A stretch of 64,000 nt of DNA from Tubulanus polymorphus (taxonomy: Eukaryota; Nemertea; Palaeonemertea; Tubulaniformes; Tubulanidae), in assembly GCF_964204645.1 (NCBI RefSeq), contig NC_134027.1, positions 24,974,485-25,038,484 on the forward strand. The letters run 5' to 3'. The position numbers and the translations under genes were made by a program. Within the stretch, counting starts at the first letter, position 1; each line of letters opens with the position of its first letter. Positions 11,093 through 61,490 of the stretch are shown here, piece by piece. The notes beneath the pieces are model-generated. The model was not told the DNA's origin. It was given only the letters and a program-made list of their open reading frames with translations, and ran no database searches.

Positions 11093-11673
11093 GAGGATGT
11101 ATCTCCAATTTTTTACCCTTGTAGAAGGCGAATAACCAACTTTCGAGCAACGCACCAGCCTCTGATTGTCGGTTGTTAATTGACTGTTGGTTGTTAGAAT
11201 TCATCGCATAAGTTCACATTCACGTATAAGTGGTTTGCATCTCAACCGTTTTTACGCGACTTCCTTTTTTACAAACGGCACATTATCCTGATCGGATTTT
11301 CTTCACGCGGCGATTGTTGCATGCTTCCATACGCATCTCCGTCATACCTTTTTTAAAATTGCAAGTTGGATAATGAACTTGTTTGCCCAGACGAGATGGA
11401 GCGCATAAAGCGGAGAGAATTTGTAACTCATAGTAGTCCCCTGCGTCGTAAAGAACGCTGCATATCAACTATCCGATGAACGTTGCTAGGAAACACCGCT
11501 CATTGATTCACACTTTCTCCCCTCGATGCGAGCTCCTTACGATCTCAGAAACCACTGGGTTTACACGGCCGATATTTTGTCATGAGGAAATTAGGGGTTG
11601 GGATAAATATGGGTAGTTTCCTCCATCAGCTCTATAGAAGCCGTTCGGGAATATTGCGAGAAAATGTGCAACA

Positions 11674-16990: not shown

Positions 16991-17640
16991 GATTTCGTCC
17001 ATAAATACGCCAAATTCTCTGCAGAATTGATCTCCAAGAACAAAATACCGGATTGTCGCGTCAATCGTTCTAACATGGCTGTTATCGTGTAAGTACTATT
17101 CATTCATTGGATTCGGATAATTTACTGAATAAAATTTGGAATTTGAATTTGGAATTTTATTACACGGATATTGTGCTTTATCTCGACTTTTGGATCTACG
17201 TCGACGTCCGATAATACGGAGAAACTGGAATACGTTTCCGATTGAAAACAAATAAATTACCCCGGCAATTCATCGATGACGAAACCGTAATTTCCTCGGC
17301 CATTTCAAAACGGCGACATGCGCATATTCAGGCCTATACGTGAATCATCAAGTAATGCATCGCAAGAGTAATACGTCGCCAGACGTTCTAATTCTACGAA
17401 ACCCGTTTATATTGTTAATTGAATAGCGTCGGGAGGACACGTCTTGAAGACGAACATTTCTATGGGAATAATCGTTTACAGTCGAATGCGTCTATAGTAA
17501 TGGAATCGTAATGCCGGCTAGGGCGTGTTATAGCCGGTTTACATAAATCAGGCATGGCCATCGTCAATACACCAATAACACGGGGAAAACGTCGGATTTT
17601 AGGACATTACTGCCAGGTACGATATTTGAGATACATCCTC

Positions 17641-39063: not shown

Positions 39064-40141
39064 TTATTGATGTTTTATCGAAGCCCGCTTTTTGCAGCAA
39101 ACGTTGCTTAAAATATCAATAGCTACTTTTCTAAATCTCTCATTTGTAGCGCAATACACGATAAAGTTTACTGATGAATCAGTGATTGAAAATCCCATCG
39201 CCAGCTGATTCATAATGTTCAGAAAAGAGATGTAACCTAAAAGCATAAAACGTTCGATAAAACCAAAACCTTCACAGAAAATAAACAACAAAACTACTGA
39301 TAAAACCATCCTTAAAACCCTCATTTCCCTTCTAGACGATTCATCAGTTACACCGAGCTCTGAACGTCGAGTAACCCGACGAACGAATATCGCCAAAATA
39401 AGTATAAGATTGATAACAAATAAAAGGCAAATTGGGATCATAACAGTAAGATACAACAATAGATAGATCCCAGAGATTTTGCGCCAATTTTCGAGGGTAG
39501 ACCACGCGGAGTAGTGATAAGACCTACCGATTACCATGATATATGGCCACTCAACAGGGCAATTAATGAATACCAGTTCATGCTCAGGTATGAAGCGAAT
39601 AAAGTGGCCAAAAAGCCAAAAGTGAAATGAACACCATCGCGCATTGTGATATGAACTTCATCGGAATTTTACGAGATTTCAGTGGAAGCAATACGACGAT
39701 TAACCGCTCTAGACTGAGCAGTACAGTGCACCAGTTACGTGTCATCTGAGACACGTAGAAAAACGGCAAGGCGACTGCGATGAAAATCTTACCGAAATTC
39801 CAATCATTCCATCGAAACACCATATCCCCTAAAACGGCGTAAACGTACGCAGTTCTCAGCGGATACAAAATAAATGTAGTCATCATAAACGAAAGATCAG
39901 TTAAAGCCAGAATTTTGATGAGAAAATAATTATCAGATTTAAATCGTTTCAGAACTAACAACGTGAATGCGTTGAATATAAAACCCAGTATTGTCGCCGG
40001 CAGATACCAGCCTAAGTATATTGATATGCAGAATTTGTTGATCCATTGAATTGGTGTAGTTTCTCTAAAAAAACACCAGGTGATGAGTTGAGTTGTTGTC
40101 AATGTAGCAGCACTTGTACTAGTAAAGTTGTTATCAAACAT
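39064..40141 (-). pseudogene. Rhodopsin-like GPCR, cluster copy 1, single frameshift
   Basis: The N-terminal part (down to 39584) covers the N-terminus through TM4 and reads into a stop after a frameshift at about 39605-39625. The C-terminal part (from 39537 down) resumes in another frame with TM5-TM7. Compared with the intact paralogues the break is a loss of two bases, or gain of one, in the stretch that follows TM4, where paralogues read SFCGHFI. The remaining sequence is well conserved, including LTDLSFM in TM2, SLERLIVV at the end of TM3, FCEGFGF in TM6 and SSVNFIVYCATN in TM7. A break this clean with little other decay could be a recent pseudogene, a polymorphism or an assembly error. 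Confidence 0.85.
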
Positions 40142-41488
40142 CTCATAAACTGTAAAACCGGACGCACAGAGCAGACGGAAACACGTTTCAAACAGAAAAC
40201 TCGACGATACTTGAAAATGACACAAAATCGCTCCACTAATCGCGTCAAATTGATGCGATACTCTAGATTATTTTTGTTTCGTGTTTGTGCACGTCTCCGC
40301 GCGCCCGATTTTAGTCTCCGAACGGACAGTTTGATTTGTTCTATTGCGTTGAGACAATGAATACGTGTTAATCCACCGATACGGATACGTAATGTCAAAA
40401 CGACTGAGTCGCGGTTTTGTCAATGCGGTACTGGTTCTATGGTATTATTGAACATACCATGAGCTGCGAACAGCAATCTCTGTACATACAGTTTTGATAC
40501 AAACATTTGCTAAAACGTCCAGTGAAAATAATTATCAAATTAAATTAGGTTTTGTATCTTTTCGCGTTGATTTGATCAAATGAAATTTTGACTATTCAAA
40601 TTTTACCACACGATGTTTCAGGTTTCATTATTTTACTGCATTTATATTCTATGAAAGACTGTGTGTAAATATTTCACTTAGATTCGTGGTATGTATGCGA
40701 AAATAATGTAAATTCATGTTTCCTTATAAAACAAAACTAACATCCATGTATGAGATGAAACTATGTATATTTCATTATTAGCAGTTTAACCTCCGAGAAT
40801 TTGTTTGATAATTTAACATTTCACAAATAAGTATTTTAAAAATCTAAGAAATGTTGCCCATGTTGCATGTGTAGCCTGTATTGAAGGAAACGAAACATCA
40901 TGATCGACAGATCGACACGGATAGACCGACACAATAAACTCAAGATATCGGTGGCCAATAGCATCTACAAAAGATATTTGTACATCTGTCTCTTCTGCAC
41001 TGCCCCGCTTCAAATACAAATATTACGGTTTTTGGGATCTGAAAGTACGTTGAGGTGGAATTGGTCGCGTGGCAGGCCTGTAATATTCTAATCATCATTT
41101 TTAGGTGACCATCAAGCCTCCGTTAGATCGGGCTCAATGCGACACTCAATAACCAAGAGACCACTTTAGAATGTTCAAATGATATTGTTGTATTTTTCTG
41201 CGTGTACCAAGTCAGTACCAAATCAGTTTTTCATAAACGACAATAGGTGACTTTATGTGTTATGTGGTGAAAGCTCTCCGTGGACTTTTCTGTACACGAG
41301 ATTTTTACAATGAAACAGTGACAGCAAGTAGTATATATGCATGAGCTCAATACGGTATTCAAATCGTCAATGTATTGCAACAGCTCGAAAATAAAATGTT
41401 GGACTTCGGACGCCATCGTTTATAAACCGTTCTTGAATTGTTTGCCCATTGCGCCATGGTCTGTTTGTGGATAATCTTATCCTGTGTT

Positions 41489-42573
41489 TTATTGTTTTCG
41501 TCCTATCGAAGCGTTCTGTTTGCAGCATACATTGCCTAAAATATCATGAGCTACTTTCCTGAATTTGCCATTTGTCGCGCAATACACGATAAAGTTTACT
41601 GACGAATCGACGATAGAAAATCTCAATGCTATTTGGTTCATAATGTCAAAAAATTGGATACAACCTAATCTCATTAAACGGTGGATGAAACCAAAACCTT
41701 CGCAAATAATAAACACATAACTACTGATAAGACCATCCTTAAAACCCGTATTTCCGTTCTAGACGATTCGTCGGTTATACCGAGCTCTGAACGTCGAGTA
41801 ACCCGACGAACGAATATCACCAGAATAAGAAAAACATTGATAACAACTATGAGGCAAATTGGAATCATAGCGGTAAGATACATGAAAAAATAAATCTCAG
41901 AAATGTCGAAACGCCATCCATATTGTTCAAACCATCGGGGGTAGTTATAATACTTAACACGTATTGTAATATAAGGCCATTGAACAGGACAGTTCATAAA
42001 TCCAAGTTTATTCTCAGGAATGAAGTGAATAAAATGGCCACAAAAAGTCAAAACTGAAATGGATGCCATCGCGCATTGTGATATGAACTTCTTGGGGATT
42101 TTACGAGATTTCATTGGAAACGATACGACGATTAACCGCTCTAGACTGAGCAGTACAGTGCACCAGTTACGCGTCATCTGAAACATGTAGAAAAACGGCA
42201 AGGCGACTGAGATGAAAATCCAACCAAATTTCCAGTCATTCCAGCGAAACACAATATCTCCTAAAATGGCGTAAATGTACGCAGTTCTCAGGGGATAAAG
42301 AATGAATGTAGCGATCATAAACAAAAGATCGTTTATAGCGAGAATTTTGATGAGAAAATGATTATCAGATTTAAACTGTTTTAGCACCAACAACGTGAAT
42401 GCGTTAAATAGCATACCCAGTATAGACGCCGGTAGATACCAGCCTAAATATGTAAAAACACTGACTTTGTTGATCCATTTGACTGGGAGATGAATTTGAA
42501 TTCTCTGACACAAGCTGGGTTGTTGCGACGTTGTCAATACAGGACTTGTGCTTGTAACGTTTTCATCGAGCAT
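41489..42573 (-). pseudogene. Rhodopsin-like GPCR, cluster copy 2, single frameshift in TM6
   Basis: The sequence runs from MLDENVTSTS through TM5 into TM6, then shifts frame at about 41710, where paralogues read VVLLFIICEG and this copy reads VVMCLLFAK and soon stops. One base is missing relative to the paralogues. The rest of TM6, TM7 and the tail follow in the second frame down to 41489, ending with a stop. Everything outside the break looks like a functional receptor (ERL at the end of TM3, MIPIC in TM5, SSVNFIVYC in TM7). It is either newly broken or a sequencing error in an otherwise intact gene. Confidence 0.85.
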
Positions 42574-42750
42574 CCCACGATCTGTTAGTGACAAAATTAC
42601 AGTCAAACCGTAGTATTCACGACACCTTTCAAAAAAGCGATCCAATTAGCGGTACTGAACGATCACGTTAGCGGTGCACGGTGTTATCGATTCTCATTAA
42701 TTATTACATTTTTTTCTTAGATGCCGGTGAAAATGTAGTCACAGAGCCGC

Positions 42751-42949
<199 letters not shown>

Positions 42950-44088
42950 CAAATCCATATATATATAATCAAATCCATCTACGTTCGTCATTTAGAATTT
43001 CGTCTCGAAGCATTTTCGTCATTCGGTGAAGCGATGAACATATGTAGTGATGTGATTAAGATAATGTTAGAAGGTCAACTTACAGTTCGCTGAAAATCCT
43101 GATAACAAACTATGAAAGCTTATAAGTAAATGCTACTAATATCCAAGGCATTGGAAATCACAGAACCGCAGTCTCAAAAGCCGCAGTCTCTTTAAAGCAA
43201 TTTTCAGCTAACAGAATAGTGAAATCAATTAATGTGGGTCATTTCATAAAACTCATTTGATAAAAGCTTTTAACCCGGCACTTACGCGATGACGGAAGAT
43301 TAGAACTGAATTTTTGGAATTACCTTTTAACTACGCACAATTTGAAAATAATTTAGTGGGTGCCATTCCAAAAGTTCATTCGTTCCGAAAGCATGTAGTC
43401 GTGAATCATTTTGCGTACGAAAGTAATCTTTCTTCGTCGCTGAATAAGAAGTCAATGCAGAAAAACAAAAATTAGTTTCAACAAAGATTTTACTAGCGAA
43501 GGTAGCTTCGATCGATGCACGTTCAATACTTCTATATAAAGAACAAGACAACTAAGTTGAAAGTAAGTTTATTGGCACATTGAAAAAAAAATAAGTGTAT
43601 AATACTTTTAAGAGGCGGTTTCGTCTTTTTTGTTTTGCTTTTTTGTAAAGCTTGAAAATGGATTGATATCTACTGAGAGTTATACGCGGCTCTGAAACAC
43701 AACCGTAGAACTGGGGCGCGGGTGCAGAAAAACGCTGTTAGCTAACCATTGTCTTCGCGCCGCGGCCTCTTATTTCAAGCTGGTTAGCCTAACCACGGAT
43801 AAGTCACTAACCACGGTTAGGCTGACAGGGTTTTCCTGCGCCCGGCCTTGGGGGATTTTTTATTTAATGTAAGTGAAGACGGAAAGTATTATTTTGGAGC
43901 GAGCTGAATATAGATCCTGGAAACTGGTGGCGTTGAGCGTGCGGAACTTCATTTTTTTCTATAATGGCGGTACCTGGCGAGTAAGTGATAGAATTTCTTG
44001 CGTGTCTGGCGACGACTACATGACACCGTTCACGCAGATTAGGTGAAGTGCTACATCAAAAAAAAAAACAGTTGAAATCGTGATTTTT

Positions 44089-45195
44089 CTACAAAGTATC
44101 TGTTATTTTATTTTTTGCAAATTTTCTCGAAGTACGTTTTTTGAAGCAGGCGTCACTTAAAATATCAACGGCTACTTTTCTGAATTTGTCATTTGTCGCG
44201 CAATACACGATAAAATTTACTGACGAATCGACGATAGAAAATCCCAACGCTATTTGTCTCATAGACCCTCCTACAAGCTTCGGAATATATCTTAAAATCA
44301 TTAAACGGTCGATAAAACCGAAACCTTCGCAAATGATAAACAACGAAACTACTGATAAAACCATCCTCAAAACCCTCATTTCCCTTCTAGACGATTCATC
44401 AGTTACACCGAGCTCTGAACGTCGAGTAACCCGACGTAAAAAAGTCGCAGAAATAATAACAGCATTGATGACAACTAAAACACAAATTGGGATCAAGGCA
44501 GTTAAAAACATAAAAAGATAGAATTCGGAGATTTCGTAACGCCATCTTCCTTGGTCGAACCATACGGGATATTGGTATCTTCTAACTCGCCTTGTGATAT
44601 AGGGCCACTGAACAGGGCAGGTCATATATCCGAGGTGATATTCCGGTAAAAAGTGAATGAAATGTCCACAAAAACTGACGAGTGAAATGAACATCATCGC
44701 GCATTGCGATATGAACTTCTTGGGAATTTTACGAGATTTTATCGGAAATAATACGACGATTAACCGCTCTAGACTGAGCAGTACAGTGCACCAGTTACGC
44801 GTCATCTGAAACATGTAGAAAAACGGCAAGGCGACTGAGATGAAAATCCAACCAAAATTCCATTCATTCCAGCGAAATACAATATCTCCTAAAATGGCGT
44901 AAACGTACGCAGTTCTAACTGGAAAAAGAATGAATGTAGCGATCATAAACAAAAGATCGTTGACAGCGAGAATTTTGATGAGAAAATAATTATCAGATTT
45001 AAATCGTTTTAGAACTAACAACGTGAACGCGTTGAATATTATGCCCACAACAGACGCCGGAAGATACCAGCCTAAATACATCAATACGCAGAATTTGTGA
45101 ATCCATCTTACAGGACGAGTTCGAATTCGTTGACACAGGTTGAGTTGCGATGGTGTAAATGCGATGGTTGTGCTAGTAATGTTATAGTCGAACAT
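44089..45195 (-). CDS. Rhodopsin-like (class A) GPCR, cluster copy 3, intact
   Basis: A single-exon receptor of 368 residues if it starts at the MFDYNITSTT methionine, as in its paralogues; an in-frame Met seven codons upstream is also possible. It has seven predicted membrane segments: TM1 GWYLPASVVGIIFNAF, TM2 with NDLLFMIATF, TM3 ending SLERLIVV, TM5 with LIPICVLVV, TM6 with FIICEGFGF and TM7 with DSSVNFIVYC. N-glycosylation sites lie in the short N-terminus. The tail motif CATNxxFRKVA after TM7 is typical of protostome neuropeptide-type receptors such as the FMRFamide-receptor-like group, which is the best family-level guess. The ligand is unknown. Odd points are ERL in place of DRY, CEGF in place of CWxP and NFIVY in place of NPxxY. 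Confidence 0.93.
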   Translation of the reverse strand: MFDYNITSTTIAFTPSQLNLCQRIRTRPVRWIHKFCVLMYLGWYLPASVVGIIFNAFTLLVLKRFKSDNYFLIKILAVNDLLFMIATFILFPVRTAYVYAILGDIVFRWNEWNFGWIFISVALPFFYMFQMTRNWCTVLLSLERLIVVLFPIKSRKIPKKFISQCAMMFISLVSFCGHFIHFLPEYHLGYMTCPVQWPYITRRVRRYQYPVWFDQGRWRYEISEFYLFMFLTALIPICVLVVINAVIISATFLRRVTRRSELGVTDESSRREMRVLRMVLSVVSLFIICEGFGFIDRLMILRYIPKLVGGSMRQIALGFSIVDSSVNFIVYCATNDKFRKVAVDILSDACFKKRTSRKFAKNKITDTL

Positions 45196-46129
45196 CCCGT
45201 AAGCTTTATGAAGCAATCTCTGTAAAAACAGGTCGATTGCTCTTTCAGAACCACGAAAGTCTAGTGAATCAGCTTTTGTATCTTTTCAGTCGTCGTTCTC
45301 GTAGTTTTTATTTGATTAAGTTTGAACCATTCAACACAAAAAACGTTCGATGAAATGCTGCCATATCATTGCACCGAATCTGATTTACTTCATAAAACCT
45401 TTTCACATAAGTTTTCCGGCGACATTTGATGTTCATGTAATTTTATCAAAACTTCGCAGGTAATTCGTCGGTGAATTCTGATTTGAAATGCAATTTGATA
45501 CACGCAAATATGTCCATGTAACCTCTTGCAAACAGAAATAATCGGAAAGGTTTGATAGAGGACCAGTTTTGACGAAAAGATAGTGAACTGATCTTGACTT
45601 TAGCTGAAATAGGGATTGACCCTGTTATTTATTTGGTTGGTAAATTTCGTTCGATTTTTTTTCTAATGCTGGTCTTAGGTGAAAGCAATGCTGCTGCCCG
45701 TAGTATAGCGCCTGTGGTACAACACTAACGATAGCAATAATTTTTCATTCAAAGGTGCTTAACATTGAAAAATTCTCAAAGCTCTTTACAAAATATACAT
45801 ATATCATTTTTTATGATTAGATATATTGCATCAAATAACAGAGACTGAACTGAATAGTGAATTCTACTCGGATAGTAGTCGTCCCTTTCGCAGTGCCGTC
45901 TTGATGTCTACGATGAACAAGTCTGCAAGACGCTGTCATTGGTCGTTTCACTGATCTAAGGCTCGCCGAGACTATTCGGAAGTCGCTAGTGGTAAAGAGT
46001 TAATGTTCTACAGCTGCTTTCTAATAAATGTGATTTTTCCCTCATCATCTAAATACATTCCTCTCCTTAGTCCTTTCCTTTTACGAGCTGATTTTGGGTT
46101 AATTCCATATCTGGTTGTTGTTCTGCATG

Positions 46130-46575
46130 TTCCAATATTCAACTTTATTACCCCGTATCATGATATACGGCCAATGGGCGGAGCATTTCAAAAAGATAAG
46201 ACTATTTGCTCGTATTGATTGAGCTAGATGACCACAAAAACTCAACAGTGAAATGAATATCATCGCGCCTGTTGATAGTGTTCTTTTAGGTATAACTTCT
46301 ACGAGATTTTATCGGAAACATTACTAACCGCTCTAGACTGAGCAGTACAGTGCACCAGTTACGCGTCATCTGAAACAAGTAGAAAAATGGCAAGGCGACT
46401 GAGATGAAAATCCAACCAAAATTCCGGTCGTTCCAGCGAAACACATGATCTCCTAAAACAGCGTAAATGTACGCAGTTCTCAGGGGATAAAGAATAAATG
46501 TAGCGATCATAAACAAAATATCGTTTATAGCAAGAATTTTGATGAGAAAATAGATATCAAATCTAAATCGTTTTA
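46130..46575 (-). pseudogene. GPCR fragment, cluster copy 4 (TM2 to ECL2 only)
   Basis: Homology to the cluster covers TM2, TM3 (SLERL, with two to three residues lost after it), TM4 and part of the second extracellular loop. TM1 is missing upstream, where an (AT)n tract with inverted-repeat flanks abuts. On the other side the loop sequence ends near 46130 and is followed at about 45990-46110 by sequence similar to the 3' flank of copy 5. TM5 to the C-terminus therefore appear to have been deleted. Stops and small indels lie around 46285-46320. This is clearly a decayed relic, closest to copy 5 in the shared loop sequence. Confidence 0.85.
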
Positions 46576-46581
46576 GTATTT

Positions 46582-46765
<184 letters not shown>

Positions 46766-47617
46766 CAACAATTTTGTAAATTCTCTTTTTTGAATCTCAT
46801 TGTGCTCTTTTATACTTTTATATACGGTGGCTGATTCGGGAAACGTCAATATGTTTCATCCTCCACGAAAACGTTCGAAAACAAACTTAATGCGCGCAAA
46901 AACAAAAACTTTTCATCAACGTTTTTTGTGAACTCACAGTACGACAGCCTCTCTTCTGATGATGGATATATTTTCATTTCGTCTTGTTAAAACTACGAAT
47001 TAAAACAATCGAATCGTTCGATTTGAATCGCGAAACGAACATGAATTTGATCGTTAGAAGACTTAGATATTAAAACATGAAGGTAAAGAGACTAAAATCC
47101 GACAAATTAAATGAATTGAAACAGTTTTTGGCCATCGTACTAAAAATGCAGCACGTATAATTTTATATCTGAAAAAAGTGTTGGTTACAATATCATTTTG
47201 AGACGGTCTCGAGGAAAAGCTTTTAAAATTTTCGATAAACAGGTTTTGATGATGTACATTCGATTCAGACTCTCAATTGGTCAGAATTTATTTGTACTTT
47301 TTTTGCATGAAAAAAATATCTTTTTTTTCGACGAAGAGAATCATCGAAAAAATCTTCAAGAAATCGTCGGAGAAATTCAATTTGGTAAATTACCAGTGAC
47401 AAAGAGTTAATGCTCTACAACTTTAAAAAGAATGAAAGCTTTCTCTCGTGTTTTAGGAAGAGTTCTGAGTATTTTCCTTTCACGAGCTGATTTTGGGTTA
47501 AGTGCAGTTTTGGTTGTTGACGACAGCGCTTCATGTGCTGAATATTGAAACGATGAAATATTCGAATTGTATTCGAAGTTTGCAAACTTTATCGAAGTAC
47601 GTTGTTCATTGCTTCGG

Positions 47618-48687
47618 TTATGATTCGAATGGTAACTTCTTTTCTGAACAGATCCCGCTTAAAATTGCGATAGCTATTTTTCTGAATTTTTCATTTGTCG
47701 CGCAATACACGATAAAGTTTACCGACGAATCGATGATAGAAAATCCCAACGCTATTAGACTCAAGCGCGGAATGAAAGGTATATATCCGCTACGACTAAG
47801 GCGGTGAATAAAACCAAAACCTTCGCAAATAATAAACAACAAAACTACCGATAAAACCATCCTTAAAACCCTCATTTCCCTTCTAGACGATTCATCAGTT
47901 ATACCGAGCTCTGAACGTCGAGTAACCCGACGCACAAATATCGCTGAAATAAGAATAACATTGATAACGACTAAAAAGCAAATTGGGATCATGGCAGTAA
48001 GATACATGAACAGAATTCTGTGAGAAACTAGGAAGCGCCATCTATCTAAATGCGAATTCCAGTATTTAGCTGTCTTACCCCGGACAATGATGTACGGCCA
48101 ATGGGCGGGACATTTCAAAAAGATAAGATTATTTGTTGGGATTGATTGAACAAAATGACCACAAAAACTTGACAGTGAAATAAGTATCATCGCACCTGTC
48201 GATAGTGTTCTTTTAGGTAAGTTATGAGATTTGATTGGAAACAATACGACGATTAACCGCTCTAGACTGAGCAGTACAGTGCACCAGTTACGCGTCATCT
48301 GAAACATGTAGAAAAACGGCAAGGCGACTGAGATAAAAATCCAACCAAAATTCCAGTCACTTATGCGAAACACAATATCGCCCAAAACGGCGTAAACGTA
48401 CGCAGTTCTCAGCGGATAAACAATAAATGTAGCGATCATGAACAAAAGATCGTTTATAGCGAGAATTTTGATAAGAAAAAATTATCAGATTTAAATCGTT
48501 TTAGAACTAACAACGTGAATGCGTTGAATATCAAACCCAGCACTGACGCCGGTAGATACCAGCCTAAATACGTAAGAGCGAACAATTTGTTGATCCACAC
48601 AACAGGACGATTTTGCAGTCTTTGACACCGGTTGAGTTGAACTGTAGTCAATGCAAGACTTGCGCTGGTCACGTTTTCATCGAACAT
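47618..48687 (-). pseudogene. Rhodopsin-like GPCR, cluster copy 5, single frameshift in TM2
   Basis: The first frame gives the N-terminus from MFDENVTSAS and TM1, and stops shortly after DNFFLSKFSL. The second frame (from 48445 down) begins within TM2 and runs intact through TM7 to a stop at 47618. The break lies in a T-rich run at about 48475-48482, where one base is missing compared with paralogues that read DNYFLIKIL. A homopolymer is a common place for an assembly error, so this copy may be functional. It has the cluster motifs SLERLIVV, IICEGFGF and SSVNFIVYCATN. Its second extracellular loop diverges from the other copies (IFLKCPAHW), suggesting a different ligand preference. Confidence 0.82.
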
Positions 48688-49084
48688 CCCGCGATCTGCC
48701 GGTTCGAGACGACCGATGATATCCGCGACACCTTTCAAAAACGAATCCGATGATGAAGTGTAGTATGATGGCGATGTCGTTCGCTCGCTGCGTAATTGGT
48801 GTAAGTTAATTGGATTATCGTTTAAATCCCTATAGCGATATCAGTTTATTGGTATATGTAAAGTTTCCCATTTTAATGATTACATTTTTTGTCAAATATC
48901 GTGCTAAATTTAGCAGTAAAGCCACGTATGTACACGCATTAATAAATCACGTCATTTTACGTTAATCAAAATATTATCGTGACAAGATGAATAAATGCGA
49001 TAGAAGTGTTCTTAGTAGTATGTGTTGTGAGGGCCTGGTGTTATTTCATTCTTCTGGAATCGTATTTTCCCATTTTCAATATGA

Positions 49085-50176
49085 TTATATCATAAGTGCT
49101 TTATTATTTGCTCGGTTTATCGAAGCCGTTTGTTTCAGGCAAGCAATATTCAGAACATCGACAGATACTTTTCGGAATTGTTCATTTGTCGCGCAATATA
49201 CGATAAAGTTTACTGACGAATCGACGATGGAAAATCCCAACGCTATTAGTCTCATTGTGTTCAAATATGGTATATAACCAAAATTCATTAAACGATCGAT
49301 GAAACCGAAACCTTCGCAAATAATAAACAACAAAACTACTGATAAAACCATCCTTAAAACCCTCATTTCCCTTCTAGACGATTCGTCAGTCACACCGAGC
49401 TCCGAACGTCGAATAACCAGACGATAGAATGTCACCGAAATAAGCAAAACATTGATAACTACTAAAAAGCAGATTGGAAGCATAATAGTTAGATACATGA
49501 ATAAATATAGACCGGAAATATCGTAACGCCATCTGTATTGGTCAAACCACATTGAGTATCGATAAACCTTAACACGTAACGTAATATATGGCCATCGAAC
49601 AGGGCAATTCATAAATCCAAGATGATATTCAGGCAGGAATTGAATAAAATGACCCATAAAACTAACTAGTAAAACAAACGCCATCGCCCAAACTGATATC
49701 AACTTCTTAGGAAATTTTCGAGATTTTATCGGAAACAATACGACGATTAACCGCTCTAGACTGAGCAGTACAGTGCACCAGTTACGTGTCATCTGAAACA
49801 TGTAGAAAAACGGCATGGCGACTGAGATAAAAATCCAACCAAAATTCCAGTCATTCAATCGAAACACAATATCCCCTAAAACGCCGTAAACGTACGCAGT
49901 TCTCAGTGGATAAAGAATGAACGTAGCGATCATAAACAAAAGATCGTTAAAAGCGAGAATTTTGATTAGAAAATAATTTTCAGATTTAAATCGTTTTAGA
50001 ACTAACAACGTGAATGCGTTGAATATTAAACCCAGTACAGACGCCGGTAGATACCAGCCTAAATACACAATAACACTGAATTTGTTAATCCATTGAACAG
50101 GACGAGTTTGAATCTCCTGACACAAGTTGAGTTGAGATGGTGCAGAAGTTGTACTGGTAATATTATTATCAAACAT
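49085..50176 (-). CDS. Rhodopsin-like (class A) GPCR, cluster copy 6, intact
   Basis: Single-exon receptor of 363 residues with the start at MFDNNITSTT. Approximate landmarks: TM1 37-60, TM2 69-92 (NDLLF at 77-81), TM3 113-138, ERL at 141-143, extracellular loop 2 with a cysteine at 191, TM5 about 226-250, CEGF at 287-290 in TM6 and NFIVY at 323-327 in TM7. The usual cysteine at the top of TM3 is absent, so the loop-2 cysteine may pair with the N-terminal one at 19. Class A receptors couple extracellular ligands to G proteins at the plasma membrane; the family resemblance is to protostome neuropeptide receptors. Both flanks are shared with copy 7. Confidence 0.94.
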   Translation of the reverse strand: MFDNNITSTTSAPSQLNLCQEIQTRPVQWINKFSVIVYLGWYLPASVLGLIFNAFTLLVLKRFKSENYFLIKILAFNDLLFMIATFILYPLRTAYVYGVLGDIVFRLNDWNFGWIFISVAMPFFYMFQMTRNWCTVLLSLERLIVVLFPIKSRKFPKKLISVWAMAFVLLVSFMGHFIQFLPEYHLGFMNCPVRWPYITLRVKVYRYSMWFDQYRWRYDISGLYLFMYLTIMLPICFLVVINVLLISVTFYRLVIRRSELGVTDESSRREMRVLRMVLSVVLLFIICEGFGFIDRLMNFGYIPYLNTMRLIALGFSIVDSSVNFIVYCATNEQFRKVSVDVLNIACLKQTASINRANNKALMI

Positions 50177-50650
50177 CTCCTATGATAGCAGCCACGACCT
50201 CTGTAGATTATTCTTTTGCGTTTCTATTTGCTGAAACATCCAGGGATTCTAAATTCAATCAGGTTTTTGTAGCTTTCCGTTCGTTGCTGTAGATTGCATT
50301 CAACAAAATCTGATCCTATCACAAACCTTAAAACTTGAAACCATCTAATTATACCATTGAATCAATATCAACTGCGCAAACATTTAATCGAATTACTTAC
50401 GCAATATGCGATGGATATTTGTAGCTATATCTATATTCACACTTTAAGACTTTGTATCTGAATATTTAACTTTGAATTCGTGTTAAATGGATGCGAAAAT
50501 TGTAATGCATTCCTTTTTGAATTTCGCATCATCGAATCTTACATGTACATATGCGATGAATTCGTTATCAACGTTTTCTATTCCAGGTTTACTTATAATT
50601 GAATATTTCCCGATACACATACCTCAGTTAGATAAGCATGTGGAATAAAA

Positions 50651-52215
50651 TTCACAAACAAAAACATACAGCGTTTCATTGATGCCTGAATGGTGTATAT
50701 ACATCATACAGATAATATCTAGAATCATCCATCGCTTAAAATTTCATTGGTAATCTTTTTTTCAGATTGTTATTGAATATGTCTTCTAATGCCTAAAAGT
50801 ATGCCAATGATGAAGCATGCCTCTGAATGTGTCAGAAGACTTAAAAAGTGCTTTATTAGATCTGTCTCTCAAACTCCAGTAAAAAGTCGTCGGTTTACAT
50901 CGTATTTTATTCGTAGTAATAAAACGACAAATACTGATTACTAAAAGACAGGATAATCGAGATAAAAATTAAGGGGTTGAATTCTAGCGCGCAGGCGATG
51001 GAATGTTCGATAGAGGTCGCTGATAGTCCGCTCCTTAGTATTCGGTAATTTCCGATGACGTCACTGCGACGGAAAATTGCAGTAGATATATGTTTGCCGG
51101 CATCCGGTGAAAAATTTGCAGCGACATCAAAAAAGAAAAAATCAAAATCCTTTAAGCTTCTTTATATCGAAAAACTCCTAGAAATTACATCGTTAAAAGA
51201 TTAGAAAAGGTGCATCTTTAAATCACTTTGGTTTACAGGAAATCGCATTTGTTTAGACCGGTTTGTAAGGTTGCTGATTTGAACTAAAAAAAAAGAAATC
51301 CATGCGATAAACCACGCAAAATAGCAAAAATGAAGTTCACTCAAGATGGCGGCGTATTCAAACACCCTGAGAGTAGTTGTCAAAATCGTTGCACTCTTCA
51401 TAACATTCAAACCTAGGATCAGGCCATGTGTAAACGTCAATAATCTTACCTTTCATTTGGATGTCGGCATATCTCACAGACGACTGTCTACCCCGTTTGT
51501 GATTATAAAAGGTAGGATACACGTCATCTTCACCCGTCAAGGGATTCGAACCCACTACGCTAAAGCTGTTCCCCGAACCCCTTGACCTCACCAGTCGTTG
51601 GAGTCGTTACTAGCCGACCAGAATCCGGTCGTACCATTCACAGCGCTTGTAACAAACGACTTTGGGCTTCTATTGGTTTTCCCGTTAAATGGACCAATCA
51701 GCGAACGTTTTACTGAACAAGGAAGTATTTCGCAAATCGATATATGACGTCATGCGCAACAGCGCCAGTAATGAAATCACGCTTCGTGAGGCCAGGGGGC
51801 TGGTGGAAGCGAGTTCGGGAGTGATACCGGACCCCTGGCAAGCGAGGATGGATACACGTACACCCAGTACACATGTCCCGGAACCAGTCCATTAATACCC
51901 GCGCTATACGGTTCCTCTTCGCCTGCCTTCTCTACAAGAATTGTCCGAACGATGGTTAAAAGCTGTTATTTGCTGTTGAAAAGATAAATTAATAAGTGAA
52001 TTAATAATGAAGGGTATTGTTAAATATTTAGAAAACTGCAATAAGGATTCAAACCCTATGTGGTATAAATGAAATAGTTTAATAATTTTAGACACGATGT
52101 GCTGTAAAGTAATTCAAGATGGTTAACCGCTATTATCGCTACTATGTATTTGGAGATTCTTATAATCTATAGACTTTTGAAAATTGGTTATTAACTAGAA
52201 AATATTCACAAGTCT
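50651..52215 (-). pseudogene. Broken duplicate of the 3' end of the FN3 gene
   Basis: The segment is homologous over its whole length to 55013-56885, which holds the last two exons and 3' flank of the FN3 gene. The counterpart of exon 7 is recognisable at about 51433-51524 and 51850-51970 but is split by a SINE insertion. The counterpart of the short last exon at about 51233-51275 still reads ATLQTGLNKCDFL and stop in the same frame as the parent. No counterpart of exons 1-6 was found. It lies between receptor copies 6 and 7. Confidence 0.85.
51525..51849 (-). mobile_element. tRNA-derived SINE inserted in the FN3 pseudo-exon
   Basis: The 325-base insert is absent from the parent exon at 56410-56598. 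It is bounded by the direct repeat GGATACACGT (51515-51524 and 51850-51859). A promoter B-box-like sequence GGGATTCGAACCC lies at about 51540-51552 in minus orientation, consistent with a tRNA-derived SINE. Confidence 0.75.
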
Positions 52216-52390
52216 TTTTTTCATCGTTTAGAATTCTAGTTTTATGGAAAACATGTAGGAACTAATTTCATGTATGATTTTAGATAGCAAAAGTAAACCC
52301 GTTTTGTGAGGGCTTGGTGTGAGTTATTTCATTCTACTTACTGGAATCATATTTTCCCATATTCAACATAATCAAATCATAAGTGCTTTA

Positions 52391-53446
52391 TCATTTGTTC
52401 GGTTTATTGGAACCGTTTGTTTTGTGACAAGCGTTGTTCAAAACATCGACAGCTACTTTTCGGAATTGTTCATTTGTCGCGCAATACACGATAAAGTTTA
52501 CTGACGAATCGATGATAGCAAATCCCAAAGTTATTAGTCTCATAAAGTTCAAACGTGGAATATAGCGTTCGATAAAACCAAAACCTTCACAAATGATAAA
52601 CAGCAAAACTACTGATAAAACCATTCTTAAAACCCTAATTTCCCTTCTAGACGATTCATCAGTTACACCGAGCTCTGAACGTCGAGTAACCCGACGGTAA
52701 AATATCGCCAAAATAAGTACAACATTAGTAACAACTAAAGAGCAGATCGGGATCATAACAGTAAGATACATGAATAGATACAGTTCGGAAATACCATAAC
52801 GCCATTTGTGATGGTCAAACCACATTGAGTAACGGTAAACCTTAAAACGTATTGTAATGTATGGCCATTGAACAGGACAATTCATAAATCCAAGATGTTT
52901 TTCAGGCAGGAATCGAATAAAATGACCCATAAAACTAACTAGTAAAATAAATGCCATCGCCCACGTTGATATTCGCTTCTTAGGAAATTGACGAGATTTA
53001 ATCGGAAACAATACGACGATTAACCGCTCTAGACTGAGCAGTACAGTGCACCAGTTACGAGTCATCTGAAACATGTAGAAAAACGGCATGGCGACTGAGA
53101 TGAAAATCCAACCAAAATTCCAGTCATTCCTGCGAAACACAATATCTCCCAAAACGGTGTAAATGTACGCAGTTCTCAGCGGATACATAATAAATGCAGC
53201 GATCATAAACAAAAGATCATTTAAAGCGAGAATTTTGATGAGAAAATAATTTTCAGATTTAAATTGTTTCAGAACAATTAACGTGAATGCGTTGAATATT
53301 AAACCCAGTACAGACGCCGGTAGATACCAGCATAAATATGTTAAAACACAAAATTTGTTAATCCATTGAACGGGAAGAGATTGAATGTGCTGACACAAGT
53401 TGAGTTGAGATGCAGTGGTTGTACTGGTAATGTTATTATCAAACAT
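52391..53446 (-). CDS. Rhodopsin-like (class A) GPCR, cluster copy 7, intact
   Basis: Single-exon receptor of 351 residues counted from MFDNNITSTT; a Met seven codons upstream in the same frame is an alternative start. It is very close to copy 6 throughout and differs mainly by a short deletion in the third extracellular loop (after FGFIER) and a few loop residues. It has the same non-standard motifs: ERL, CEGF, NFIVY. Flanking DNA on both sides is also shared with copy 6 (about 48990-49085 with 52300-52390, and 50200-50520 with 53470-53800), so the two arose by a tandem segmental duplication that also carried the 3' end of the FN3 gene. Confidence 0.94.
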   Translation of the reverse strand: MFDNNITSTTTASQLNLCQHIQSLPVQWINKFCVLTYLCWYLPASVLGLIFNAFTLIVLKQFKSENYFLIKILALNDLLFMIAAFIMYPLRTAYIYTVLGDIVFRRNDWNFGWIFISVAMPFFYMFQMTRNWCTVLLSLERLIVVLFPIKSRQFPKKRISTWAMAFILLVSFMGHFIRFLPEKHLGFMNCPVQWPYITIRFKVYRYSMWFDHHKWRYGISELYLFMYLTVMIPICSLVVTNVVLILAIFYRRVTRRSELGVTDESSRREIRVLRMVLSVVLLFIICEGFGFIERYIPRLNFMRLITLGFAIIDSSVNFIVYCATNEQFRKVAVDVLNNACHKTNGSNKPNK

Positions 53447-53799
53447 CTCATAAGCTAGCAGCCACAACTTCTGTATATCATTTTATTGTGCTTCTATTCT
53501 CCGTTCTATTTATTTCAACGTCCACAGTGATTCTAAATTCAATCAGGTTTTGTAGCATTCCATTCGTTGCCGCAGATTCATTTCATAAAAATTAGATCCT
53601 ATCACATCCTAAATTATATCCCATCTAATTATATCATTGAATCACATGAACTGCATAAACATTCTACGTAATAATGTCCGCATTATGCGACGGATATTTG
53701 TAGCTATATCTATATTTTCCCTTTAAGACTTTGTATCTGAATATTTCACCTTGAATTCGTGTTAAATGGATGCGAAAATTGTAATGCATTCCTTTTTTA

Positions 53800-53995
53800 A
53801 AATTTCGTTTTAGAACTAACAGCGTGAATGCGTTGAATATTAAACCCAGTACCGACGCCAGTAGATACCAGCATAAATAGATTAAAGCAAACAATTTGTT
53901 GATCCGATTAATTTGGAGAGCGTGAATTGTCTGACACCAGTTGAGTTTAGTGGTTGTCAAATGCTGGAAATGCGGTAGTTACATTTACATCAAAC
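53800..53995 (-). pseudogene. GPCR fragment, cluster copy 8 (N-terminus and TM1)
   Basis: Reading leftwards, the sequence gives a receptor-like N-terminus starting near 53993, a frame change at about 53960, then WYLLASVLGLIFNAFTLLVLK, which is TM1 of the cluster family. At about 53805 homology to receptors stops abruptly and is replaced by sequence that matches the 5' flank of copy 6. A deletion from TM2 onward has therefore fused this fragment to the upstream flank of copy 7. Its own upstream DNA (54000-54290) matches the upstream DNA of copy 5 (48740-48985). Confidence 0.8.
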
Positions 53996-55585: not shown

Positions 55586-56140
55586 TGTTGTGGGGTTGCT
55601 TTCGGTTCTCCGATGTTGTGGGGTTGAGTTTCTCAACCAATTGTTGTGGGGGCCACGTTGCGTTCTCCCCTCGTGTTGTCGTTGTTGGTTCCGATTAATC
55701 CGATAAGTGATATCCCTCTGACTCCGGAATAATAACAACTCTTCTCGTGGGTCTACGTTCTTTCTTTATTTTCCCGCACAATTCTTATTCCTTCCTACAG
55801 CTCGTATTTTTAGGCTTCTCCGCCACTCTGGCCTCTCTCTCCCCCTTACTGTGCTGACCCTCTCTTTTTATCTTATTTCATGTTATTCGTGACGTATACT
55901 TCTACATATGTTATACGTCACGAGTTTATTATACTTGTTTACTTCCTAGCCATACCAGAGCTCAAGGCTGCCGCTATAACCAGCAACCCTACGCAGATAG
56001 TCACGTCACTTTCACCTATCTTCTATTCAGTGTCTTGTGTGCGACGTAAGCATCTACGTAGGTTGTTTACTAACTTCAGCCACTGCCCTGAACTCTGGCT
56101 TCCCTCCCTCTATGCAAACTACTAATTTATCACCCCAATA
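55586..56140. mobile_element. Insertion of 555 bp, possible solo LTR
   Basis: This stretch is absent from the duplicate copy of the region (junction near 51209), which proves it is an insertion. It starts TGTTGTGGGG and ends CACCCCAATA, with GTTC repeated at both edges (55582-55585, 56141-56144). The start resembles BEL/Pao-type LTRs; the end is not the usual CA. No coding sequence. It lies 24 bases from the stop codon of the FN3 gene, in the 3' flank. Confidence 0.6.
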
Positions 56141-56163
56141 GTTCATCTTTAAATCACTTTGGT

Positions 56164-59100
56164 TTACAGGAAATCGCATTCGTTTAGACCGGTTCGTAAA
56201 GTGGCTGATTCGAGCCAAGTAAAAAAATAAGGAAAGAAATCCATGCGTTACACCACGCGAAAATTGCAAAAACGGATACAAAAATGAAGTTCAACCAAGA
56301 TGGCGGCGTATTCAAACGCTCTGAGAGTAGTTGTCATCCGCCATCAAAATCGTTGCATTATTCATGACATTTTAACCTAAGGGCATGCGTAAAACATCAA
56401 TAATCTTACCTTTCATTTGGATGTCGGCATATCTCACAGACGACTGTCTACCCCGTTTGTGATTATAATAGATAGGATACACGTACACCCGGTATACATG
56501 TCCCGGAACCAGTCCATTAATAGCCGCGCTATACGGTTCCTCTTCGCCTGCCTTCTCTACGAGAATTGTCCGAACGATGTTGAAAAAACTGTTATTTGCT
56601 GTTGAAAAGAAAATATACGTATGTATCAAAACTACATCTACGAGAATGGAATCAAATATAGCCGCAACGCAGCCATAGCGGATTTTCTACACAGCCGCGT
56701 CATGCACATTCGAAATGAAGGGTTATTATAGAATATTTGAAAAATTGCAATTCACATTTTCGGGATTCAAACCGTTATGTGCTATAAATGAAATACATGT
56801 AGATTAATCATTTTTCAGAAGATGCTACATAAACAGTTAACTTCTAAAAATCGGTTATTAACTGGAAAATCTTCACAAGTCGTTATTTCTAAGTATAGTG
56901 TAACTACTATTTTGAGTGTGTGTTCCAATAGTAATCTATGATAAAAATCTCTAAATTTTGTAAAGCATATCTAATAAAGATTTTCACCAGCGCTTAATGG
57001 ATTATTGTGAAACTGCATCTTACAGTCGATACGCTCTACCGGAAAGCAGATATTTCAAACTGTATTCAAATGTGTTCGAATCATCAATTTTTTAATTTTC
57101 TCTCGCCAAATGTCACATTTCAAATATTTTTTCTTTACCTTTTCTATGTACGACTAATTTATACGCGGTGACGCCATGGCCGTTATTCCTTCCACCTACC
57201 CACCGCACCCGTAAAGTTGTCCGGCCAATCTGTTTCAGGTCAACAATCTTAAAGGAACTGATTTCTGAAATGTGTTTGAAAAAAAAACAACCATACATTT
57301 CTCAACTAAAAAGGAATCTTTGTTTCTATTGTCCGTTTGACAATCGAGTCAAAATGGTCAATATACTATGACGCTGGGTCCAGGATTGATGGTCTCATGG
57401 CACTCGAGGCCGTTAGGTTCCAAACGCAGGATTATATATAGCATACTTGTTTCAGTTGTTTTGAAGTAAACTCGATTGCTCGCTGGACCTTCGTACTTTC
57501 CGTTCACCACGACGACATAGGCGTGATATCCACAGTTTGGAGCCAACAGACGAACAAACCCGCAAACTTTACTGGATTTACATCCGCCTATGACGTCATA
57601 CTGACTAGATTGACTTGTATTATCAACGTTGATAACATGAATCTGAAAAAAGCAAAAAAATGAGAAAATTAACCGTATATATCTATTCTATATAATAAGG
57701 CAAGAACTATCTACCGAAACTCTTCTATCCATGAAAGATTACTGCATAGTTAAACTTCAATTATTGATTGAGGTAAAATAAAATCATAATTCGGTGTTGT
57801 TATGCGATGGAAGTTTTGGGAAGGGAATGATCTTTCAAAACTATTCGCCTTGCTGCAATCCGCGCCACAGCGTGAGTTGAAGGGGAAACCGGGAATCTTA
57901 GGAGCAAGAGACCGCTGCGGCCAGTCTGGGATCGTTACTTCTAGAAGACCTCCACTAAGAGGAGAGGCATCTAGGTTTTGCAACTGATCATGTGTTGATT
58001 CTACGTATTAGGAATTCATACCCGGTATGATTTGAATTGACCTCGAATGGCCGTTGATGACGTATTCAGCGCATTCCACGTGAACAGCACGGTCTTCGGG
58101 TCCAACCGATTCGGCGATACTTTGAAGTTTGTCGGTGCTAAGGATGGTACTATTAGAGAAATTACAATAAAAGAGTGCATTGTTAGATTGAAGTAGCCTT
58201 TATAGCCACAACAAAATCACAACAATAAAACAATTCATTTTGAAACTGATATAATGAAACACAAATTTCGCTGATTTATTTCAGCCTCATCGGGTATGCT
58301 CATTAGTGAAATCTGGCGTTTCCTGTTTTCTATTATATATACAAGGCTGGTGTGTTTCATGTTGCAAACACGTTGTGCCATGACCGTAGTTGTGGTGGCT
58401 GATTCGGGCCTTATCAAACAAATATATACAAAACTCAATCTCGGTATTTCCATTTTTAACCTGGTATTTCTTGGTTTAAACTCCACTTTAAAAACGAATT
58501 TTCGTTTTAACGTTTCAACTTTTTGCGTTACTCGAAAATCTACGGTGGCTAGTGGTTATTCCCGGATATGTTGTCTCTTGATATTCAGTATCTACACTGA
58601 GTAGAGACCTCGCTTCATTCCAAGCACGACTGTGCAACTGATACTGAAGCATCAGGAGTTCACGAAAAGACGAAATTTGAGATTGATTCATCAAATTGTT
58701 AAACGTCAACTCTCCACAAACACAATTGCAAATAAGATCTATTTCATTATTCTGTTTAATTCGAATTTTCTCGATTCGATTTTGCCCCCTTGGCTTACAG
58801 GTCGAAAAAAATAATTTTCATTGAAGTTAATAAACGGTATTCTCGCTTTCGAACCTGACTTAGATAGACAATACGATCGCTTTTATCATGCTCCCTCTGC
58901 AGGGATTCGAACCATCAGATAGCACCGCGCAGACTTACCATCTTCCCCGGAATATGCTGTGTTAATCACGGGTTTGTCTATTGGACTTCCACGCGCGTTC
59001 ACCGACTCGACGCTGAACTCGTATGACGTATGAACGGTCAAATGATTTATTTCGTACGAATTTCCCTTCCCGTCCACGATCGCCGTCGACCAATCATCGG

Positions 59101-61490
59101 CCGAGCCGGAGCGTCTCCATCGAACTGTGTACATCAGATTCGGAGCGTTCCATTGCAGAAACGAAAGTGGCTGAAAATAGCGAGGAAACTAAATTAACTT
59201 GAAAGTTCATTAATGCCTCGAAGAAAAAAAACACACATAAGTGCATGTAGTATGTATTGGGTACTACTCACATACGTGTCTGATATTTACTTATCATTTT
59301 TGCCCCTGTCTAAGTCTGCCCCTGGGACCACCCCTGCCCAAATAATCTTAACGCAGGCACTTCGCACCTCCCTATCTTACCTCCCATGAAATTATAATCT
59401 TGTTCGGCGACACGGCCTTGCCTCTAACATCGTCGGGGTTTCTATCTGGCCTATCGGGATTCGTCGAACACGTGCCGTCGACCGGTTCGGGCTGGTCAAC
59501 GCGTCCGTTCGAATAATAGGCCGTTACGCGAAATCGAAACTTCCTGTTCCCGGGCAGTTCGAAGTTAGCGCCGTTTTCAGCGCCACCTACTGTGTCGCCG
59601 TCATACCAGATATCAGACGAATTACCCAACGAGTATTCGACATTGTAGAGCCGCGGTACAACCTTCCGATTCGACGAATCCCAAACGATATGGACGTAAC
59701 GGCCCGAACAGGTTTTCACGTGAGCCTTGGGTACAACTGCAATTAACAAGAGAGATATAAACATTTTCACTGGTTTTACGTGTGCACCAAGAGCCCTAGG
59801 GTACGGGCTAACTGTTTCTTGATCTTACAATAGGGGAGTGTTCTATTTGTGTATTTGGTTGAATGAGTTGATGTTTTATGCTCATCTCCTATACAACCCA
59901 CCACACCTGTCAGACTATAGAGGGTTTGATTTTGAAATCGGAAATCGAAGTACAAATAGCTTAGATGGTCTGTCGAATTCACATCATTTTTTTCCAAAAT
60001 CGAAAACAATTTCGAAATTTCGGTTCGTTTGAACAAGCTTCCATCTAACCTGAGCCCTATTAATAGCGAGTGACTGTCATGATTTATCGCATTATCGAAA
60101 GAAAAACAAACAAAAACATAGATTTTACGAATTTGTAAAAGAATATAATCGTCTCCAACACGCCATGTTACATGTAGTGTTGTGAACAGTTTATGTCCTT
60201 CGCTAAGGTGAAAATGTGTGATATACATGTACAACTTGTAAAAAATCGCTTAGTGAAGAAAAATGGTCGAATCAAAGTATGAGTGAATAAACTTTTTTCG
60301 GGTATTTCAGTATTTTATTTACGACATCTGCTGCGTGTCATCGGGTTTACGATCGTCAAGTATGCGGACTTGAACTCGACGCGATAATAACACGTTTTAA
60401 CATGGAATACAGCCTGCAGCAAAAATACGCTCCGCGCATTCGAAGGAAAAGTCTTACGATGACGATGTAATGATCGTGTTTATTCGCAGACGACGAGACC
60501 TCTTGTTCAATGATGGATAATTCCCTCGGGCTCCGGGAGCATTCACCGCGATTCGCGTTACTCCGCCGCGTCTAACACAGTGAAAACTGTTTCAATCGGT
60601 CGCACTTCGCTTCATTAAACACCTACGAACAGGCAAAATACTTTTGCCTTTCCTCGACGGTATTTGTCGAAACGATCAATTTTGTACGGGATTTTTACGT
60701 ATAAGCTCAAACAAGGCCCTTCTTTGAAAGCCCGCGCTGAAATTACCAAAATGATCTTCGCCTAGCTGGTTAAACGGCCCGACCCAATTCCCTTCATGTT
60801 AGGGTTTTCATCAATAACAGGGCCACAGGGGGCGGGACAGTGCCCAAGAAGAAATTTTGGAAAAGTCCTCTTTTTCAAATGTTATTGTTACGCATATCCT
60901 ATAGTAAGAACTGCCCTTTTTCGGGTTTCTCTGCCCCCGAAAATTCAAATGCTTAATACGGCCCTGAATATAGAACCGTTTCAACTTAGACCCTGGGGCT
61001 GGTTGTATAGTCATGGCATAGACTTAAGAACAGTCTAAGACAAACTAAGTTCTATAGTCAATCTAATAACTTAAGACAAGTCTTAAGATTTAAGACCACT
61101 TTTGGACTTAAGTCACGACTGTGCAACCGGCCCCTGAAGGATGTTTCAATTATTGCTACTAGTCCACTCGACATTTAGAGCCTGGACCCAGTTCCACAGT
61201 TGTGAATTAGAGTAAAGTCTGAGTTAAATTTAGCTCATTTTCGATCATTCAACTCAAAAGTTTAATCTTATCTCGAAACTGTGGAACTGGGTCTCGATCT
61301 ATAAAACTTAGGGGCTGATTTATAGATTATAGGGGTTTACTGAATCTAATTTCAATTTAGTTAACCCCGGTCTAAGTTGATACCAATAAATAAAACCGGT
61401 CCCTGGCTTCAATAGCTTACCTATTTGCGCAGTAAGAACGACCAAATGAAGTAAAATCAGGAAAGTTCTTCGACCCGACACCAGAATCAT
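56164..61490 (-). CDS. Secreted four-FN3 protein of the L1CAM/neuroglian type, 8 exons
   Basis: Exons in coding order: 61421-61490, 59381-59736, 58939-59170, 58022-58137, 57447-57642, 57139-57264, 56410-56598, 56164-56204. All splice phases chain, giving 441 residues. Exon 1 is a signal peptide (residues 1-23, core FLILLHLVVLTA). FN3-1 spans about 27-120, FN3-2 about 121-219, FN3-3 about 220-323, FN3-4 about 324-428, then a 13-residue tail ending CDFL. Neuroglian/L1 hallmarks are NPDDVRGKAVSPNKIIISWE, WNAPNLMYTVRWRR, YSGEDG at the end of FN3-2, APTNFKVSPN with IRGQFKSYR in FN3-3, and NGKYEGPASNRVYF. Canonical family members have six Ig domains, five FN3 domains, a membrane segment and an ankyrin-binding tail; none of these extras is present. 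A soluble cell-adhesion or axon-guidance modulator is an inference. The last exon's frame is conserved in the duplicate copy. Confidence 0.87.
58266..58294 (-). other. Degenerate hammerhead-like hairpin
   Basis: On the minus strand the order is CCGATGA, a GCTGA/TCAGC helix and GAAA. The first core position pair departs from CTGATGA. It lies in the intron between exons 3 and 4 of the FN3 gene. Confidence 0.35.
61184..61294. repeat. Hairpin MITE family, copy 5
   Basis: Same ends and core as the copy at 6772, with more substitutions. It lies in the first intron of the FN3 gene. Confidence 0.7.

Follow-up and report, generated by a model that had tools for sequence, protein, structure and literature searches.

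Can the FN3 half of an L1/neuroglian-type adhesion molecule exist as a gene of its own, and what would its product do? The question is raised by a locus in the palaeonemertean Tubulanus polymorphus, within a stretch of 64,000 nucleotides (C3:24974485-25038484 of the 267.8-Mb assembly; hereafter the window). On the minus strand, from 61490 to 56164, lies a gene whose architecture, a signal peptide followed by FN3 domains, is highly probable, and whose product is probably an L1-derived secreted protein. As the best explanation of the evidence as a whole, a secreted FN3 rod of L1 origin acting as a ligand or competitor is favoured with moderate confidence.

Exon chain and L1-type ancestry

The sequence-only reading had proposed eight exons running in phase from a signal peptide into a neuroglian-type FN3-1 and closing with a 13-residue tail. 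Rebuilt base by base, the joined exons comprise 1338 nt (445 codons and TAA) and are open throughout, with GT-AG at all seven introns, junction phases of 1, 0, 1, 0, 1, 1 and 1, and outer ends that coincide exactly with the ATG and the stop codon. Exon 1 (61421..61490) carries the start codon and the signal peptide MILVSGRRTFLILLHLVVLTAQI and ends in a phase-1 donor, GTAAGC. Exon 2 (59381..59736) encodes FN3-1 and the first strand of FN3-2 and ends in phase 0, while exon 3 (58939..59170) completes FN3-2 with the motif YSGED at its end (phase 1). FN3-3 is divided between exon 4 (58022..58149, phase 0) and exon 5 (57447..57642, phase 1), and FN3-4 between exon 6 (57139..57264) and exon 7 (56410..56598), both of which end in phase 1. 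The last exon (56164..56204) is only 41 nt long and encodes the tail ATLRTGLNECDFL, which is not hydrophobic, and the stop codon TAA. The order of the product is thus signal peptide, four FN3 domains and tail; Pfam recognizes fn3 in it in three stretches (1.9e-25).

Among solved structures, the closest relatives of the window protein (PDB search) are L1 (8afo, 1.8e-22, residues 119-324, corresponding to FN3-2 and FN3-3) and Drosophila neuroglian (1cfb, 5.8e-19, residues 26-219, corresponding to FN3-1 and FN3-2), followed by contactin-2 (3.5e-13). Contactins combine six Ig domains, four FN3 domains and a glycosylphosphatidylinositol (GPI) anchor. They resemble the window protein in their four related FN3 domains and, being its next-best solved relatives, might be regarded as its source. 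This origin is nevertheless highly improbable: L1 and neuroglian score far better and share YSGED with the window protein, whereas contactin-2 has YSAEE in the alignments; neither Ig domains nor a hydrophobic tail were detected in the window protein; and its intron phases are identical to those of the L1 gene of the same genome. A contactin-2 fragment used as a genome query revealed no contactin of the animal's own, a result that shows little.

The L1/neuroglian gene of this genome (at about C3:7.2557-7.2646 Mb) is canonical: its open stretches, read by eye, encode six Ig domains, FN3-1 to FN3-5 and a transmembrane (TM) segment, then QRNRGGKY and DGSFIGQYG. Its exons, modelled from Ig6 to the TM segment, end in phase 1 after Ig6 and in phases 0, 1, 0, 1, 1 and 1 after FN3-1, FN3-2, FN3-3a, FN3-3b, FN3-4a and FN3-4b; all seven intron phases of the window gene equal these, junction by junction. 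The counterpart of exon 2 (C3:7260246-7260652) has the same phases, and that of exon 3 lies at C3:7259865-7260138. Intron borders also fall at matching residues (slashes mark introns; window gene first): ISWE/PLS and IMWS/PMP, YSGED/ and FSGED/, SYR/IHV and GYR/IEC. The shared phases and matching borders indicate that part of an L1-type gene was duplicated, introns included, to give the window gene. The sequence matches to solved structures, the phases and YSGED all support the derivation that had been proposed for it, from the FN3 half of L1/neuroglian. When domains were scored singly against the canonical protein, FN3-2 matched FN3-2 with 43.3 bits and FN3-3 matched FN3-3 with 15.5 bits.

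Other comparisons give a fainter picture. Identity to the canonical protein is only 26-28% (26% over 396 columns for FN3-1 to FN3-4). The first domain scores 1.4 bits with canonical FN3-1 and 3.8 with FN3-5. The fourth is about equally near FN3-4 (7.1 bits) and FN3-5 (8.2 bits); exon 6 shows a faint match to canonical FN3-4, and solved structures give FN3-4 alone weak matches, the best being fibronectin (0.028). The label "FN3-4" is carried by order, intron phase and length and is not settled by sequence similarity. A structure model of FN3-1, built on an alignment of three rows, was poor (mean predicted local distance difference test score, pLDDT, 59.3) and found no fold match at 0.001. Its top match, at 2.1e-3, was the first FN3 domain of KIAA0343, which we take to be the L1-type protein NrCAM, and many FN3 domains stood in the best 50 rows; given the low confidence of the model, this fold search counts for little. 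Two cysteines of FN3-1 are invariant across the window, canonical and sister-gene (see below) rows.

Related FN3-only genes and the signal-peptide exon

Genome searches with single exons uncovered a sister gene on C2, 47, 43 and 50% identical over three exons (47% for exon 2 of the window gene). Its exons (C2:27265857-27265920, encoding a signal peptide and ending in phase 1; 27265997-27266361; 27266482-27266716; 27266813-27266940; 27267021-27267245) specify a signal peptide and FN3-1 to FN3-3, with the phases of the window gene as far as the C2 gene extends. L1 and neuroglian are the best solved relatives of this protein as well, and its domains score 8.8 (FN3-1), 46.1 (FN3-2) and 36.0 bits (FN3-3) with their canonical counterparts. 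Only 76 bp of intron separate its signal exon from FN3-1, too little for Ig exons. Translation stops within the exon of FN3-3 (FQTINN*), so that the modelled product lacks an anchor; its predicted secretion is well supported. As judged from sequence, the exon chain of the window gene and its match to L1 are far beyond chance, because its phases match those of the full-length L1 gene in this genome and because the C2 gene, with the same phases, shares 42% identity over 323 columns. Between these two genes, differences at the three codon positions amount to 0.42, 0.37 and 0.69 (pN 0.385; pS 0.85, saturated; 320 codons), a third-position excess as expected under purifying selection.

A third gene (C9:1680358-1683460) was reached through weak genome-search matches on C9. 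Its signal exon (1683460-1683382) is followed by a duplicated domain pair, FN3-1-2-1'-2', and by a stop codon inside the last exon; the product has 463 residues, the phases are 1, 0, 1 and 0, and the best solved relative is neuroglian (6.8e-23). Both copies of FN3-1 contain the two cysteines mentioned above. In an unrooted tree of FN3-1 and FN3-2, consisting of five rows from this single genome, the window and C2 genes group together (100/100), apart from the canonical gene and both C9 copies, which suggests two origins of FN3-only genes. Searches with the canonical and C9 FN3-1 revealed no further L1-type locus among the best candidates scored. On C1, the matches at 8.39-8.45 Mb represent an extended series of FN3 repeats, presumably part of a giant muscle protein. 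Viral contigs, considered as a source of relatives, gave 103 stretches that fit a pattern, none of which was confirmed. The region C2:27255-27259 kb, which precedes the C2 gene by about 7 kb, contains many stretches that we take to be sushi (CCP)-like and one that we take to be Ig-like.

All three gene models have a signal exon with a phase-1 donor before an L1-type FN3-1 and a stop codon without a TM segment. They are proposed as a gene set of putatively secreted FN3-only L1 paralogs with three members in this genome. Exons of the signal type (an ATG start, a strongly hydrophobic stretch and a phase-1 end at GTRAG) were counted over 4.26 kb of sequence preceding FN3-1, with cut-offs chosen after the exons had been seen. 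Exactly one such donor was found at each of the three loci, with three possible ATGs in the case of C2. After dinucleotide shuffling, any signal-type exon appeared in 1/100 sequences for the window gene, 2/100 for C2 and 1/100 for C9. Both strands of the window and of 21 loci, 548,000 strand-bases in all, contained eight candidates, three of which are the signal exons of the FN3-only genes; an equal stretch upstream of the canonical FN3-1 contained none. Another start, MFISLLLIAVV, in the frame of exon 2 just before its acceptor, lies inside the polypyrimidine tract and is probably due to chance.

The acceptor of FN3-1 has phase 1, as after Ig6 in the canonical gene, and this would also fit a full-length L1-like gene with Ig exons further upstream, whose signal exon would be spurious or an alternative first exon. 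Ig domains were sought in several ways. Pfam models, run over 54.1-64 kb in each of the three minus frames, returned only fn3 and one fn3-like model; PDB searches with three frames of 59.74-64 kb had no match at E 1; the motif D.[GA].Y.C is absent from 59.74-64 kb; and tblastn queries taken from the Ig pieces of this genome found no Ig domain (best match 0.38 within the window; 0.021 for the adjoining 20 kb upstream). Two of these searches are less telling than they seem: the raw-frame Pfam scan recovered just one of the window gene's own FN3 exons, which makes the absence of Ig from it weak evidence taken alone, and the PDB search had no positive control. A full-length gene is nonetheless scarcely probable: no Ig domain was detected between 59.7 and 64 kb or in the next 20 kb upstream, the corresponding intron of the C2 gene has only 76 bp, and a single signal exon lies upstream at all three FN3-only loci.

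The 3' end and the predicted role of the product

The solubility of the window protein depends on where the gene ends. Acceptors were judged against 19 confident sites, whose leave-one-out scores run from -1.9 to 14.3. On this scale, the acceptor of exon 8 is only average (3.4) and is outscored by 8 of the 131 AGs in 54.0-56.4 kb, for which reason exon 8 is the likely rather than certain 3' end. One of these eight, at 55500, scores 10.0 and precedes a hydrophobic frame, and another 3' end is possible. Exon 7 might accordingly be joined to a different 3' exon with a TM segment or a GPI signal, so that the product would act at the cell surface as a short FN3 receptor or co-receptor. Besides the strong acceptor at 55500, such a version could draw on an in-phase hydrophobic frame of 45 residues after an AG at 56320 (56187..56319, minus strand), which would make the protein membrane-bound. 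That exon was rejected, its acceptor (-12.8) falling under all 19 confident sites, and TM-like frames are common locally, following 14 of the 132 AGs in 53.95-56.39 kb. The canonical exon encoding FN3-5 and the TM segment has no significant similarity in the window (best match 0.45), and the C2 sister gene stops within its last FN3 exon. A membrane-anchored version is hence unlikely.

In the model ending with exon 8, no TM-like segment follows the signal peptide. The most hydrophobic 19 residues beyond it reach 1.12 in the window and C2 proteins and 1.72 in the C9 protein, where they lie inside the first FN3-2 and are interpreted as the core of a domain rather than as a membrane segment. Neither F[IL]G[QE]Y nor FIGQY occurs on either strand of the window, whereas the canonical gene has FIGQY. 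The sequence-only reading had held that Ig domains, a fifth FN3 domain and an ankyrin-binding part are missing, and none was detected in the window (nor Ig in the 20 kb upstream). Its denial of a membrane part holds for the model, with an alternative 3' exon still conceivable. Overall, secretion of the window product is likely and its solubility quite probable. The exon chain, the L1 origin, the lack of detected Ig, TM and FIGQY parts, the recurrence in two paralogs and the third-position excess between the sister genes are all read from sequence. The decoy or modulator role attached to it in that reading goes further: expression, splicing, secretion, receptor and effect are all points that we infer.

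The following history would account for these observations. The window gene goes back to an old, partial duplication of a gene of the L1/neuroglian type. The exons of FN3-1 to FN3-4, with their phase-1 border at the start, were placed behind a short phase-1 signal-peptide exon. The product would be secreted, a rod built of four FN3 domains that lacks Ig domains, a membrane anchor and an ankyrin-binding tail. Diffusible or bound to the matrix, it could serve as an FN3 ligand or competitor for receptors contacted by the FN3 half of L1 (of the FGFR type, or L1 itself), and in this way L1-dependent adhesion and outgrowth might be tuned, as by soluble L1 and anosmin-1/KAL-1. This receptor mechanism is tentative. 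The low identity to canonical L1 means that receptor contacts may be lost, and it leaves room for a new partner, for instance in the extracellular matrix; PMC4043741 names a neuroglian-like protein among those of a coral skeletal matrix.

A soluble ligand or competitor role is suggested by the literature on L1, FGFR1, anosmin-1 and soluble L1. A review states that binding to FGFR1 requires FN1-FN5 of L1 and implicates a complex of L1-CAM, FGFR1 and secreted anosmin-1 in neurite branching (PMC6562592). The effect of soluble L1-deltaTM is reported to depend on FGFR1 signalling (PMC6398979), and FGFR-mediated effects of the soluble L1 ectodomain are reviewed in a further article (PMC6747497). The soluble L1 forms (shed ectodomain, L1-deltaTM) and, as predicted, the window product are both soluble extracellular proteins derived from L1. 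The former retain their Ig domains, and a full-length gene is their source, by way of proteolysis or splicing; in this genome, part of the FN3 half is encoded alone, by separate genes.

Anosmin-1/KAL-1 is a secreted protein with several FN3 domains behind an N-terminal cysteine-rich/WAP part. The window protein likewise has several FN3 domains, but WAP is not among its Pfam models (E up to 0.1), which comprise fn3 and three weaker models. With L1-type molecules (neuroglian, L1CAM, NrCAM, neurofascin, CHL1 and tractin), the window gene has in common the order of FN3-1 to FN3-4, the phases of the L1 gene of this genome, YSGED and the best PDB matches; unlike them, it has no detected Ig domain, fifth FN3 domain, TM segment or FIGQY, and its own signal exon is joined to FN3-1. 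The L1-type plan, which such proteins maintain stably (PMC2346466), comprises six Ig domains, three to five FN3 domains, a single TM segment and FIGQY/ERM motifs. As only the FN3 domains of this plan are found in the window gene, it is not classed as an L1-type adhesion molecule.

No report of secreted FN3-only L1 paralogs was found among the open-licence papers listed (titles and the beginnings of abstracts), and such proteins may be annotated in animal proteomes. The genes would represent known domains in a new arrangement, forming a small set. If this is true, a canonical L1 and three secreted FN3-only derivatives with varied domain counts would mark the FN3 half as a portable functional unit. 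The FN3-only genes would also be a natural test of the role of this half without Ig-mediated homophilic adhesion, and the window gene would illustrate in detail how phase-1 exons can be shuffled into place behind an exon for a signal peptide. Also speculative is the idea that this lineage evolved such proteins at least twice (window and C2; C9) as dedicated soluble antagonists or agonists of L1/FGFR, a task performed elsewhere by shedding, splicing or anosmin-1.

The copied 3' end and the neighbourhood

A copy of the 3' part of the window gene lies downstream on the same strand (52222-51210; exons 7 and 8 at 51233..52222), its pieces being 74-94% identical and the homology being detected over exons 7 and 8 only. 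The duplicated exon 8 has four substitutions in 41 nt and no indel; its kept frame had been cited by the sequence-only reading in support of the gene model. The duplicated exon 7, on the other hand, is broken by a 1-bp deletion and a 325-bp insert (51525-51849), and with homology confined to two exons the preserved frame of exon 8 lends the gene model little support. The insert is flanked by GGATACACGT, a 10-bp target duplication, and holds GGTTCGAATCC, which we take to be a tRNA-like B-box; it is possibly a short interspersed element.

A solo long terminal repeat (LTR) of 555 bp (55586..56140; TGTTGTGG...CCCCAATA), with a 4-bp target duplication GTTC, lies 23 bp downstream of the stop codon of the window gene and is not present in the duplicated fragment. 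The position of this LTR and the broken state of the adjacent copy might suggest that the window gene itself is a decaying pseudogene or a functionless fragment. That is very unlikely, given 445 open codons over eight exons with intact splice sites, the third-position excess relative to the C2 gene and the existence of two more intact members. The only AATAAA/ATTAAA signals of 55586-56163 are inside the LTR (55925 and 55765), and transcripts of the window gene may therefore now end in it. The genome holds at least 39 other near-full copies of this LTR at 97-99%. The LTR is young, and several of its genome copies are paired at about 3.46-3.50 kb from start to start, which suggests full elements of about 4 kb.

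The window gene stands at the upstream end of a tandem array of at least six genes or fragments of the rhodopsin family of G protein-coupled receptors (39067-53978, minus strand), spaced 1.5-3.5 kb from start to start and roughly 60-88% alike. All three members scanned match Pfam 7tm_1 (6e-9 to 4e-7), one of them just under the curated cut-off. Farther away, two inverted single-frame copies of a glycosyltransferase of family 11 (10085-11200, minus strand; 17512-18648, plus strand) are 90% identical over 345 residues, with Pfam values of 1.3e-35 and 3.5e-37. Arrays with an 8-bp period occupy 42654-43062 and a stretch from 46477 onwards, and the repeat listing contains 52 overlapping members of a 195-nt reference.

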